Assembly (NCBI GenBank): GCA_018333955.1
Contig: JAGXSD010000058.1
Span: forward strand, 1 to 64,000
Reading direction: 5' to 3'
From: Erysipelotrichia bacterium
GTDB lineage: Bacteria > Bacillota_I > Bacilli_A > Erysipelotrichales > Erysipelotrichaceae
Length of the DNA stretch: 64,000 nucleotides
The translations under genes were made by a program, and so were the position numbers. Position 1 is the stretch's first letter; every line of letters starts with the position of its first letter. Shown here piece by piece: positions 34,509-39,537 of this stretch. The notes beneath the pieces were generated by a model that was not told the DNA's origin, ran no database searches, and was given only the letters and a program-made list of their open reading frames with translations.

Positions 34509-34519
34509 AAAGAAGATTA

Positions 34520-34549
34520 AATCAGGGTGATTGAACACCCTGATTTTTT
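34520..34549 (+). terminator. Terminator after PFOR
   Basis: Stem AATCAGGGTG / CACCCTGATT followed by TTTTT. The glycosyltransferase ribosome site follows immediately, so some read-through could feed that gene. Confidence 0.9.
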
Positions 34550-34565
34550 AAAAGGAAGGTCAATC

Positions 34566-35561
34566 ATGAAAGTATTATTATACTTTGAAGGAGAGAATTT
34601 AATCTCAAAATCTGGGATTGGACGTGCTTTAAAACATCAAAAACGTGCTCTAGAGCTTGTAGGTGTTGATTATACGACAGATGTCATGGATGATTATGAT
34701 ATCCTTCATATCAATACCGTTGGAATTACAAGTCCTCTTGTAGTAGCACAAGCTCACGCTTTAGGGAAAAAGGTGGTTTATCATGCCCATAGCACTGAAG
34801 AGGATTTTAGAAATTCGTTTATTTTATCGAATCAAATAGCACCATTAGTTAAGCAACATCTTATAAACATGTATCAAATGGCGGATGTGATTATCACACC
34901 AACTCCTTACTCAAAATCCTTACTAGAGAACTATGGCATCATCAAACCTATTTATGCTGTCTCCAATGGGATTGATTTATCACGATATTCAAAAGATGCT
35001 GAAAAAGAGAAAACTTTTAGAAGTTATTTCCATCTTGCACCTGAGGATAAAGTGGTGGTCAGTGCAGGACTTTATCTAAAACGTAAAGGCATTATTGATT
35101 TTATGGAAGTTGCACGAATGATGCCAGAAGTAACTTTTATATGGTTCGGTTCGACTCCACGAATTGCATTAAGTCAAGAAGTAAAACGTGCCATTGATCA
35201 TCATCCTGTCAACGTGAGATTACCGGGATATCTCAAAGGTCCAGGATTTGAAGGAGCATTTTCAGGAGCTGATGCGTTTTTCTTCCCTTCACTTGAAGAA
35301 ACCGAAGGGATTGTAGTGCTTGAAGCGTTAGCATCGAAACAAAAGATTGTCGTTAGAGATATTGGAGTTTACCAAGGTTGGTTAAATCATGGTCAGAACT
35401 GCCTTATGGGATCAACCAATCACGAGTTTGTGAATCATCTCAAAGCGACACTCGATGGGAAATATCCTAATGAACTTATCGAACAAGCTTATCAGACAGC
35501 TAGTGATCGTAGCCTTGATAAAGTGGGGCAACAACTAAAAGCGATTTACGAATCTTTATGA
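34566..35561 (+). CDS. Glycosyltransferase, CpoA/LafB-like (glycolipid synthesis)
   Basis: 331 residues from ATG 34566 (AAAGGAAGG upstream); an extension from 34527 would run through the PFOR terminator. GT-B fold of family 4: the N-terminal SGIGRALKHQKRALELVG is the hallmark of CpoA-type enzymes, and the C-terminal donor site has FPSLEETEGIVVLEALA with the E-x7-E pattern. CpoA/LafB adds the second sugar to glucosyl-diacylglycerol, giving the anchor lipid of lipoteichoic acid. The LafA-like partner is two genes downstream, which supports this; the sugar and linkage are inferred. Confidence 0.8.
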   Translation: MKVLLYFEGENLISKSGIGRALKHQKRALELVGVDYTTDVMDDYDILHINTVGITSPLVVAQAHALGKKVVYHAHSTEEDFRNSFILSNQIAPLVKQHLINMYQMADVIITPTPYSKSLLENYGIIKPIYAVSNGIDLSRYSKDAEKEKTFRSYFHLAPEDKVVVSAGLYLKRKGIIDFMEVARMMPEVTFIWFGSTPRIALSQEVKRAIDHHPVNVRLPGYLKGPGFEGAFSGADAFFFPSLEETEGIVVLEALASKQKIVVRDIGVYQGWLNHGQNCLMGSTNHEFVNHLKATLDGKYPNELIEQAYQTASDRSLDKVGQQLKAIYESL

Positions 35562-35604: not shown

Positions 35605-36618
35605 ATGAAAACAAACAAGTCGATGCTTTTGAACTTTATGATTATAATTTCAGTCATTGGATTGATGATTTTCATCATGGCCGATGACTTTTCTTCTATT
35701 ACACAAATTTTGAGTAGTATACGCTTAAGTTATGTCGTCTTAATTGTTTTACTTACTATTTTTTATCATGTTTTAGTCGGGGTATCACTTACAAGACTAG
35801 CTCGTGTCTCAAATCCTAAATATACTTATTTAAAAGGTATTCATAACGCATTCATAGCAGCTTTTTTTCATGGTATAACACCTGGATCAAGTGGCGGTCA
35901 AGTTGCGCAAGCAATCATTTTTAATAAACAAGGTGTAAATTCTGGAGCTGCAGCAAGTATACTTTGGATTGAATTTATCATTCATCAAGCAGCCTTAGTG
36001 ATTGTAGGATTTGTTTTTCTCTTTACAAAAGTAGGAATTTTAAGAATGCTTAATCCAACCATTCAACTCCTCGTATTTTTAGGATTCATTATGAATATGA
36101 TTGTGCTATTATTCTTATTCTTAATTGTTCAATCACCACGATTTAACAAGTGGTTTCTTATTAAGGGACTCCATATACTTAAAAGCATTCGTGTAATTAA
36201 ATCTATTGAGAAAAATCAACAAAAAGTTATAGAATTTGTTCATCAATTTGAACAAGCACAAACCATGTTAATGAACAATCTTGATGAAGTAGCACGAGTC
36301 ACAATCATGTCTATATGTAAGATAACATTATTCTATTTTATCCCTTATCTTGTGTTGCGATCATTTGGAGTCCAACTCATTAGAGTTAATTTCTTAGATA
36401 TTATGGCTTTGTCTGCATTTTTGGGTATGTTGAAGGTATTTGCACCACTTCCAGGGGGAGCTGGTGGAACAGAAGTGCTATTCATTATCTTATTTTCAAT
36501 CTTTACGAATCAAATCGTAGCAACTTCTACCATGATAGTGTGGCGTTTTGTCTCGTTTTATATGATAATGTTAATAGGCTTTTTATTCTACATGACATAC
36601 AAACTTAAAATGAGGTAA
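35605..36618 (+). CDS. YbhN/AglD-like flippase-type membrane protein
   Basis: 337 residues with about eight membrane helices. The late FAPLPGGAGGTEVLF matches the PPxPGGxGGxE signature of the lysylphosphatidylglycerol synthetase membrane domain / UPF0104 family; GITPGSSGGQVAQA is the family's first conserved block. Relatives move or modify lipids in the membrane, as in MprF. Placed between two glycolipid glycosyltransferases, it may translocate glycolipids, an inference. It has no Shine-Dalgarno site and a strong promoter six bases before ATG. The next gene follows after two bases. Confidence 0.85.
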   Translation: MKTNKSMLLNFMIIISVIGLMIFIMADDFSSITQILSSIRLSYVVLIVLLTIFYHVLVGVSLTRLARVSNPKYTYLKGIHNAFIAAFFHGITPGSSGGQVAQAIIFNKQGVNSGAAASILWIEFIIHQAALVIVGFVFLFTKVGILRMLNPTIQLLVFLGFIMNMIVLLFLFLIVQSPRFNKWFLIKGLHILKSIRVIKSIEKNQQKVIEFVHQFEQAQTMLMNNLDEVARVTIMSICKITLFYFIPYLVLRSFGVQLIRVNFLDIMALSAFLGMLKVFAPLPGGAGGTEVLFIILFSIFTNQIVATSTMIVWRFVSFYMIMLIGFLFYMTYKLKMR

Positions 36619-36620
36619 CT

Positions 36621-38609
36621 ATGCGAATCGGATTATTTGCTGACACGTATGCTCCGGATATTAATGGAGTAGTCAGTTCAATTGTGACACTTCAAGAAGG
36701 ACTAATCGAACTAGGGCATGAAGTGTTTGTGATTACGACACATAACAATCTAATTTCAACAAAATTTGAAAACAATGTTTTAAGATTACCTGGAATTGAA
36801 ATCAAGAAACTATATGGGTATGTGCTTACCACGCCAGCCCATTTTCTTGCGTACAATCATGTGAAATCGATGAACCTGGATGTTATTCATGTTCATACTG
36901 AATTTGGTGTTGGTATTTTTGGTCACATTATGGGGAGTATGTTAAAACTTCCTATTGTATCTACCTACCATACAACCTATGAAGATTACACGCATTATGT
37001 GAACATTTTCAATTCTAAAACTATCGAACGCTTAGCAAAGAAAACAGTGATGAAGTTATCACGACTTTATGGTTCTCACTGTATGGCGATTATTTCACCA
37101 TCAGAAAAAACTAAAGAGATGTTGGAGCGATATCAAATAGAAACACCAATCCATGTTATTCCAACAGGATTAAATCTAGATAAATTCAAAAAAGTATACT
37201 CAACTTCAGAGAAAAAGGATTTCAGAGTGAAGTTAGGTATTAATGATGATGATTTTATTATCACTTATGTAGGAAGAATCGCAAAAGAGAAAAGTATTGA
37301 TGTTGTGATAGATGGAATGGCTGAACTGAAGAAAATTAACCAAAGAGTTAAGTTTCTTATCGTAGGTGCTGGACCTGAATTAGAAGAACTTCAATCACAA
37401 TGTGAAAAACTTAAACTTAATGATTGTGTTATATTTTATGGAAAAGTTCCAAATCAAATGGTTTCAGAGATATATGGTCTATCAGATATGTTTGTTTCTG
37501 CATCACTAACTGAGACCCAGGGACTTACTTTTATTGAAGCATTAGCTTCAGGATTACCTGTATTCGCAAGAAAAGATGATGTTCTTGAAGAATTAGTGTT
37601 TGATAATGAAACTGGGTATTATTTTGATTCAGCTAAGGAATTTGCACTGAAGGTTGATTCATATACTAAAATGAGTCAAGAAGATCGAATCAAGATTGAA
37701 AGTAATGCTCATCAAGTCGTCGAAAAATTTGATCGATTAAGTTTTGCGAAAAAAGTTATCTCAACTTATGAACTTGCGATGAAGCGTTACTTTTCAACTT
37801 ATTATATTGAAGATATCATAGTACGAAATGATATTTCAGAAGTTGAACTAATTTCAAAGTTTGAGAAAAGCAAGGTTAAGATTTTCCCTGATATTGTAAG
37901 ACAGCTCAAACTTAAGAAGGGATCTATTGTGAATAAAGAGACATATCAACGGTTTGAAGAGGAGCAGAAAGTTGTTGATGCATTTGAGAAGTGTGTGAGA
38001 AAGATTGCGTTTAAAGATCGTACTCGAAAAGAAATTTTTGATTTTCTTCACCAACTTGGTGATCTCAATGCGACTCAAATGAATGCAATCATTTCAAAAC
38101 TTGAATCTTATGGATATATTGATGATGTGAGGTACACATCTTCGATGATTATGAACTTTCAATCTTTGCTTGTTGGGCAAAACAAGATACTTAAATCATT
38201 GCAAGATAAGGGAATACCATATGAAATGATTCTCAAGGTTCTTAGCGAAGAGAATAGTCAAAGTGAATATGAACGTGCTGTTATGTTTGCGGAAAAGACA
38301 AAATCTTCACTTCATGACATGCCTTTACTGGCGAAGAAAAGTAAAATTAGGAATAGACTTATTTCACGTGGATTTGAATCTTCATTAGCTACTGAAGTTG
38401 TGAACCAATTAGATTATGATATGGATGAAACCGAAGAGTTCATTATCTGTCAAAATGAAGCAATGAAACTTAAAGAAAAACTTGCGAAGAAAGACTTAGA
38501 TCCTTATAAAGCGCGTCAAACTTTATTGCGCCAGCTTGTCAACAAAGGATTTAGATTTGAAACTATCCAACAAGTGATTGATGGATTAAAGGAGGATGAA
38601 ATTGGTTAA
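36621..38609 (+). CDS. LafA-like glycosyltransferase fused to full-length RecX
   Basis: 662 residues. Residues 1 to about 390 are a complete GT4 enzyme like 1,2-diacylglycerol 3-alpha-glucosyltransferase: MRIGLFADTYAPDINGVVSS at the start, IPTGLNLDKF, and the donor motif ETQGLTFIEALASGLP. Residues about 393-662 look like a whole RecX protein, not a fragment: a small N-terminal beta part (QLKLKKGSIVNKETYQRFEE), then tandem three-helix repeats beginning AFKDRTRKEIFDFLHQLGD, with GYIDDVRYTSSM and NKGFRFETIQQVIDGL. RecX inhibits RecA filaments. The frame is continuous with no stop or internal ribosome site visible at the joint. It overlaps yhaM. Confidence 0.85.
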   Translation: MRIGLFADTYAPDINGVVSSIVTLQEGLIELGHEVFVITTHNNLISTKFENNVLRLPGIEIKKLYGYVLTTPAHFLAYNHVKSMNLDVIHVHTEFGVGIFGHIMGSMLKLPIVSTYHTTYEDYTHYVNIFNSKTIERLAKKTVMKLSRLYGSHCMAIISPSEKTKEMLERYQIETPIHVIPTGLNLDKFKKVYSTSEKKDFRVKLGINDDDFIITYVGRIAKEKSIDVVIDGMAELKKINQRVKFLIVGAGPELEELQSQCEKLKLNDCVIFYGKVPNQMVSEIYGLSDMFVSASLTETQGLTFIEALASGLPVFARKDDVLEELVFDNETGYYFDSAKEFALKVDSYTKMSQEDRIKIESNAHQVVEKFDRLSFAKKVISTYELAMKRYFSTYYIEDIIVRNDISEVELISKFEKSKVKIFPDIVRQLKLKKGSIVNKETYQRFEEEQKVVDAFEKCVRKIAFKDRTRKEIFDFLHQLGDLNATQMNAIISKLESYGYIDDVRYTSSMIMNFQSLLVGQNKILKSLQDKGIPYEMILKVLSEENSQSEYERAVMFAEKTKSSLHDMPLLAKKSKIRNRLISRGFESSLATEVVNQLDYDMDETEEFIICQNEAMKLKEKLAKKDLDPYKARQTLLRQLVNKGFRFETIQQVIDGLKEDEIG

Positions 38610-39537
38610 TATAAAAGAGTTTAAAGATAAAGAAAAGCACGAACAACCTTTATTAGTAAGTAATATTCTTCAAGGTGTGACCACAAAAGGTTCACCCTAT
38701 TTATCAATAACTTTGCAAGATAAATCAGGTCAGATTGAAGGAAAATTATGGGATGTTAAGCCTGAGCAACTTCAAATCATCAAACAAGGCATGATAGTTT
38801 TAGTTTCCTTTGAGGTATTAAATTATCGTGAGCAACTTCAACTTAAGATTTTTGATGTAAAACCATTGGATCAAAAAACCGTTTCAATTGATGATTTCCT
38901 ACCAGAATCTGATGTGTCCTCTGAGGAATTAAAATTATCAATTGAAGGCTTTATTTCTCAGTTGAAGAATCCAGTGTATAAATCTTTAGTCAGTGCTATT
39001 GTGACTGAAGTAGGATATGATTTCTATGAATACCCTGCCGCAAGTAAAAATCATCATGAATTTAAAGGTGGACTTGCAAGCCATGTGGTAAGTATGATTA
39101 AACTTGCGAAGGAAGTACTTCGTTTATATCCAATGTTAGATCATGATTTATTGATGAGTGGGATACTACTCCATGACATTGGTAAGACTGTAGAACTTTC
39201 AGGACCTATTTTGACCGAATATACAACGGTGGGGCGTCTACTTGGGCATATCTCAATTGTGAATGCCATGATTTATCATCATGCGAAATTGTTGGGCATA
39301 GAGAATAAAGAAGAGACTATGTTACTTCAACATGTCGTCTTATCCCATCATGGTCAGTATGAATTTGGTTCGCCTGTTCTTCCACTTGTTCCTGAGGCTG
39401 AAGTTTTACATTTGATTGATAACTTAGATGCAAGATTAAACATGTTTTCTAAAGCTATGGAAAATATTGAAGAGGGAATGTTTACTCAAAGAATATTCAG
39501 TTTAGAGAATAGAAGTTTTTATAAGAAAAAAGGTTAA
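38596..39537 (+). CDS. yhaM: YhaM-family 3'-5' exoribonuclease
   Basis: 313 residues, usual size. An N-terminal OB-fold (KGSPYLSITLQDKSGQIEGK, about 30-50) is followed by an HD domain with LLHDIGKTVEL and SHHG, the build of YhaM, which degrades RNA and some DNA from the 3' end. AAAGGAGG touches the ATG at 38596, so the TTG at 38602, six bases after it, may be the true start (311 residues). The gene overlaps the RecX fusion by 8-14 bases. Confidence 0.9.
   Translation: MKLVNIKEFKDKEKHEQPLLVSNILQGVTTKGSPYLSITLQDKSGQIEGKLWDVKPEQLQIIKQGMIVLVSFEVLNYREQLQLKIFDVKPLDQKTVSIDDFLPESDVSSEELKLSIEGFISQLKNPVYKSLVSAIVTEVGYDFYEYPAASKNHHEFKGGLASHVVSMIKLAKEVLRLYPMLDHDLLMSGILLHDIGKTVELSGPILTEYTTVGRLLGHISIVNAMIYHHAKLLGIENKEETMLLQHVVLSHHGQYEFGSPVLPLVPEAEVLHLIDNLDARLNMFSKAMENIEEGMFTQRIFSLENRSFYKKKG

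Follow-up and report, generated by a model that had tools for sequence, protein, structure and literature searches.

The window, that is, the whole stretch of 64,000 nucleotides that was analysed, carries an open reading frame at 36621-38609 which starts with ATG, comprises 662 codons and has zero internal stops in the ORF reading of the window. Its first part encodes a glycosyltransferase (GT) and its second part RecX. The frame, its parts and its neighbours are as follows.

34566..35561, + strand: LafB/IagA-BgsA-type glycolipid glycosyltransferase (NF053513, 495.9 bits, over the cut-off of 460)
35605..36618, + strand: YbhN/LPG_synthase_TM flippase-like membrane protein (PF03706, 1e-33; TIGR00374 over cut-off)
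36621..38609, + strand: lafA::recX fusion gene, 662 codons (open frame and order-wide fused orthologues)
36621..37778, + strand: GT4 half, LafA/MGlcDAG-synthase-like, residues 1-386 (GT4 profiles; intact EX7E motif)
37770..37796, + strand: joint, about residues 384-392 (the place where the GT and RecX genes overlap in unfused relatives)
37797..37887, + strand: RecX N-terminal beta part (predicted strands, residues 394-421; profile-profile alignment)
37935..38606, + strand: RecX helical repeats, about residues 439-662 (Pfam, NCBIfam and PDB sequence matches; predicted fold)
38596..39537, + strand: YhaM-type 3'-5' exoribonuclease (NF010007, 4.5e-107, below the equivalog cut-off; synteny)

The flippase-like gene ends 2 bases ahead of the fusion gene, while the YhaM-type gene overlaps it by 14 bases and adjoins RecX in fused as well as unfused relatives. 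A preliminary description of this DNA had placed the frame in a lipid context on account of its LafB-like and YbhN-like neighbours, and this placement stands, the LafB-type neighbour scoring over the IagA/BgsA cut-off. The start of the LafB-type gene has been reassigned from GTG 34527 to ATG 34566, which has aaggaagg upstream and, judged by these signals, is likely the true start. The GTG first listed is located within a terminator-like hairpin (34519-34566) behind the upstream oxidoreductase gene.

The RecX model NF010733 matches residues 415-656 (E 1.3e-34), with a score under the 240 bits that NCBIfam requires for an equivalog, which is also true of all 395 genomes of the class draw. Pfam RecX_HTH3 and RecX_HTH1 are above cut-off in this half; RecX_HTH2 is unmatched in the copy of the window's genome and matched in relatives. 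The PDB sequence matches are the RecX crystal structures 3e3v and 3d5l. Profile-profile comparison with the standalone RecX of the class gave a probability of 100% over 266 columns, the N-terminal beta part included. The structure model of residues 386-662 (mean pLDDT 84) consists of three N-terminal strands followed by helical repeats; it has the three-helix repeat fold, and RecX structures take the first six places among its PDB matches. The model of the whole chain, with the window and related-locus sequences as input, is poor (pLDDT 64). Based on the family profiles and the predicted fold, the C-terminal half is a genuine RecX. No second RecX was found elsewhere in the window's genome (G000), so that the fused copy is the sole one, and the genome encodes RecA (PF00154, 4.8e-138). 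No LexA-type box GAACNNNNGTTC was found in the window. It would be conceivable that RecX now serves the GT as a regulatory or binding domain and has given up its action on RecA, as its fusion to a metabolic enzyme and the identity of only about 20-34% between the RecX halves of different genera might suggest. We consider this very unlikely, however, since the profile match covers the entire RecX family, RecX survives the loss of the GT in some relatives (see below), and this sole RecX occurs together with RecA.

In the GT half, the Pfam domains Glycos_transf_1 (1.3e-34) and Glyco_transf_4 (1.2e-27) were identified, and the EX7E motif is intact, with E298 and E306 invariant in the 28 rows aligned. 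By its GT4 domains and this motif, the half is a GT4 glycosyltransferase. Its best NCBIfam model is the MGlcDAG synthase NF049988 (residues 1-384, E 8.8e-88). Because the score of 295.3 bits misses the equivalog cut-off of 400 bits, the half is designated here as MGlcDAG-synthase-like only. The claim of the preliminary description that one 662-codon frame holds a full-size glycosyltransferase and a whole RecX is thus upheld by profiles, profile-profile alignment and predicted fold; the search with GT4 and RecX profiles that it had proposed matched both, the RecX match lying after residue 390 (415-656).

The gene at 36621-38609 is confirmed as a real GT-RecX fusion, in which a GT (residues 1 to about 386) is joined to a complete RecX (about 387-662). 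An assembly error or chimera was considered and ruled out by the occurrence of the same joint in many independent assemblies, including single-contig genomes, and its recurrence in two families places the fusion beyond chance. The joint is nearly indel-free across the fused relatives: among 29 aligned fused proteins, the anchor-to-anchor distance across it measures 83-86 residues, with a single exception (79). Both halves share similar purifying selection, with a dN/dS of about 0.06-0.10 (GT half 0.07-0.10, RecX half 0.06-0.08, window copy versus two congeners), values that are rough with synonymous sites near saturation.

A whole-protein search of 60 relatives recovered a full-length fused orthologue in most of them, and these orthologues span two families. 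In the 148-genome draw of the order, RecX was matched in 143 genomes, and 128 of these 143 matches are frames of fused length (at least 600 codons; counted from the table), while 3 of the remaining 15 (G499, G493 and G057) are fused genes truncated at a contig end. Every RecX gene examined in family f2 is fused, except one frameshifted copy. Outside the order, RecX occurs in frames of about 250-310 codons among the matches listed for the class draw, and no fused case outside the order was found in a 392-genome phylum draw, which the same class dominated. Two genomes (G021 and G281) were left out, as they matched nothing, RecA included, and G450 was rejected as a RecX-less genome, its contig ending inside the gene. 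There are also irregular copies. For example, one fused gene (L093, genome G105) has an intact GT half and a weakly matching, long-branch RecX half that is possibly decaying, and another, from a single-contig genome (L077, G435), shows a frame change near the GT middle with RecX intact, either real or a sequencing error.

Then, how did the two genes come together? In three families that belong to the class but lie outside the order, f8, f10 and f19, the flippase, GT, RecX and YhaM genes occur in the same order as in the window, with GT and RecX as separate genes that overlap by about 20-70 bases (longer in f10, 56-74). At 11 of the 12 f8 and f19 loci read, a RecX-frame GTG or ATG is located 20 bases ahead of the GT stop, with GGAGG or similar within the last GT codons at several of them; for f10, AGGAG lies ahead of ATG in two of four loci. 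In families f11, f12, f14, f15 and f21, the GT orthologue is not adjacent to RecX and usually sits beside a flippase gene. In the GT tree, GTs without a RecX neighbour come first, then the unfused neighbours, and then one fused clade (support 90) that holds both families of the order, and the RecX+YhaM tree places the unfused f10 outside the order. On this sequence evidence, the fusion was most likely born once, in the ancestor of the order, by one frame change within the GT/RecX overlap. Alternatively, an older fusion may have been split separately in f8, f10 and f19, but more steps would be required. The preliminary description had also suggested a survey of homologues in the class and had named a lineage-specific fusion of adjacent genes as one possibility. 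With fused orthologues nearly throughout the order and the unfused state in three families outside it, the survey bears out the fusion of adjacent genes, whereas the fusion is lineage-specific only if the order in its entirety is taken as the lineage.

Other arrangements were observed in the same survey. In genus g104 of family f8, a related GT carries a different N-terminal extension of about 260 residues (L116, L117 and L118, in G157, G323 and G116), which appears hydrolase-like by eye and was without match in a Pfam search. In family f18 (L059, G086), the order of the window is reversed: RecX comes first, and a glycosyltransferase gene with weak similarity to the GT overlaps its end slightly.

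The fusion has also been undone in several members of the order. At loci L080-L088, RecX stands alone, still adjoining YhaM, and the GT is absent there; in genus g3, fused and GT-less states coexist. In G452, G020 and G539, the GT has been cut to 113-172 residues that keep the MRIG start and remain in frame with a well-scoring RecX. Of these stubs, the one in G020 clearly resembles the GT (30.7 bits), and those in G539 (14.3) and G452 (11.0) do so less strongly. Each score exceeds those of 300 shuffles, the two weak ones of 11 and 14 bits standing against shuffled maxima of 6.4 and 0.6, respectively. G513, G546, G549 and G555 have gone back to two genes, which overlap where the joint would be, in two cases by an ATGA stop/start. 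An Erysipelothrix MAG (L035) is also split at the joint, with an ATG-started RecX of 264 residues, where a sequencing error is possible. On the RecX+YhaM tree, about 7 changes of the fused state are counted, at least 6 of them on well-supported branches. Since GT loss with RecX kept, stubs and re-splits recur, RecX can do without the GT, and the fused state is not essential. Two genomes, G473 (L136) and G494 (L137), have an additional, unfused GT located apart from RecX; the G473 copy branches within the clade of fused GTs, so copies of the GT alone arise as well.

The recurrent undoing bears on the idea that RecX is anchored to the membrane by the GT half and would there act on membrane-associated RecA or couple RecA control to lipid synthesis, and that the fusion has been kept for this purpose. 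Lipid GTs of this type sit on the membrane surface, and a tether would agree with the order-wide conservation and the fixed joint. In addition, E. coli RecA, in its bundles and storage structures, is associated with anionic phospholipids (PMC6363387), which both favours a tether and makes the statement of the preliminary description, that membrane lipid glycosylation and RecA control have no known link, slightly too strong. However, the persistence of RecX after GT loss and the repeated re-splitting argue against an essential role, and B. subtilis RecX-YFP acts in nucleoid foci (PMC3527212). Consequently, we regard the tether as unlikely.

Another possibility is that the gene yields two products, through cleavage at the joint or an internal RecX start that would give free RecX. 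In the window copy, an in-frame GTG at 37929 lies behind an SD-like AAG AAG GGA run, and 6 of 28 relatives have AAGGA with a start codon at residue 436/437. E. coli-type RecX is without the N-terminal part, so an internally started product could work. Nevertheless, most fused relatives are without such a start, the window copy is absent from the scan's motif-list matches for internal ribosome sites, and the aligned fused genes show no start near the joint that is both conserved and accompanied by a ribosome site. The region where RecX starts in unfused relatives has not been kept as a start in the fused genes, and the stubs described above hold their frame into RecX, which would be needless with a strong internal start. 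Two products thus seem rather improbable.

The explanation that we favour, and consider quite probable, is one bifunctional chain with two most likely independent activities, which arose by a single ancestral fusion and in which RecX is translated from the GT start. The N-terminal half would be a glycolipid glycosyltransferase that, judging from the families, probably adds the first sugar onto diacylglycerol, the LafB-type neighbour adding the second, and the C-terminal half would be a RecX regulating RecA, as family membership and the RecA of the genome suggest. The ancestral frame change in the overlap would have eliminated the stop codon of the GT as well as the start codon of RecX itself. 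From that point on, translation of RecX would have begun at the GT start codon, and the supply of RecX may be set by the lipid operon. GT and RecX activities would thus share one polypeptide, not needing each other, and the fusion would persist as a heritable, tolerable arrangement that has been undone several times. B. subtilis RecX is functional with YFP on its C-terminus (PMC3527212), so RecX tolerates a partner, though at the other end. Two points should be noted, however. RecX is about 500-fold scarcer than RecA in E. coli (PMC9252578), and its one-to-one production with a metabolic enzyme therefore poses a question of dosage. The survival of the fusion in nearly the whole order could mean that it is useful, which counts against this explanation.

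In the literature covered, open-licence PMC papers, no description of a GT-RecX fusion was found. Both halves belong to known families, while in these papers nobody seems to have described how they are joined, how widely the joined protein occurs in the order or how it evolved. One chain with two jobs that do not depend on each other is better supported by the evidence than a novel connection of lipids with DNA repair. The locus and its relatives offer a natural series of gene-fusion evolution, all stages of which are found in living lineages, from neighbours through overlap and fusion to erosion or re-splitting. They also indicate that cells can produce RecX as the C-terminal part of a metabolic enzyme, and annotating such a gene from one half hides the other. 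If the tether were true after all, an entire order would link its control of RecA filaments to glycolipid synthesis or to RecA at the membrane, and membrane lipid synthesis would be connected with recombination control.

Three known systems can be compared with the fusion protein. The GT half resembles the alpha-monoglucosyldiacylglycerol synthase, or LafA-BgsB-type GT4 (NF049988), in its full-length match, GT-B/GT4 fold, EX7E motif and LafB-type neighbour, but the fusion protein scores below the cut-off of that model and bears a RecX domain. The RecX half is similar to the Bacillota-type RecX (B. subtilis RecX, 264 aa, PMC3527212; PDB 3d5l and 3e3v) in length, N-terminal beta part, helical repeats and whole-length profile match; here, however, it makes up the second half of a 662-residue chain and its own start is absent. 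Finally, the flippase-GT-RecX-YhaM group of f8, f10 and f19 has the same genes in the same order, whereas GT and RecX are separate overlapping genes there, which looks like the pre-fusion state.
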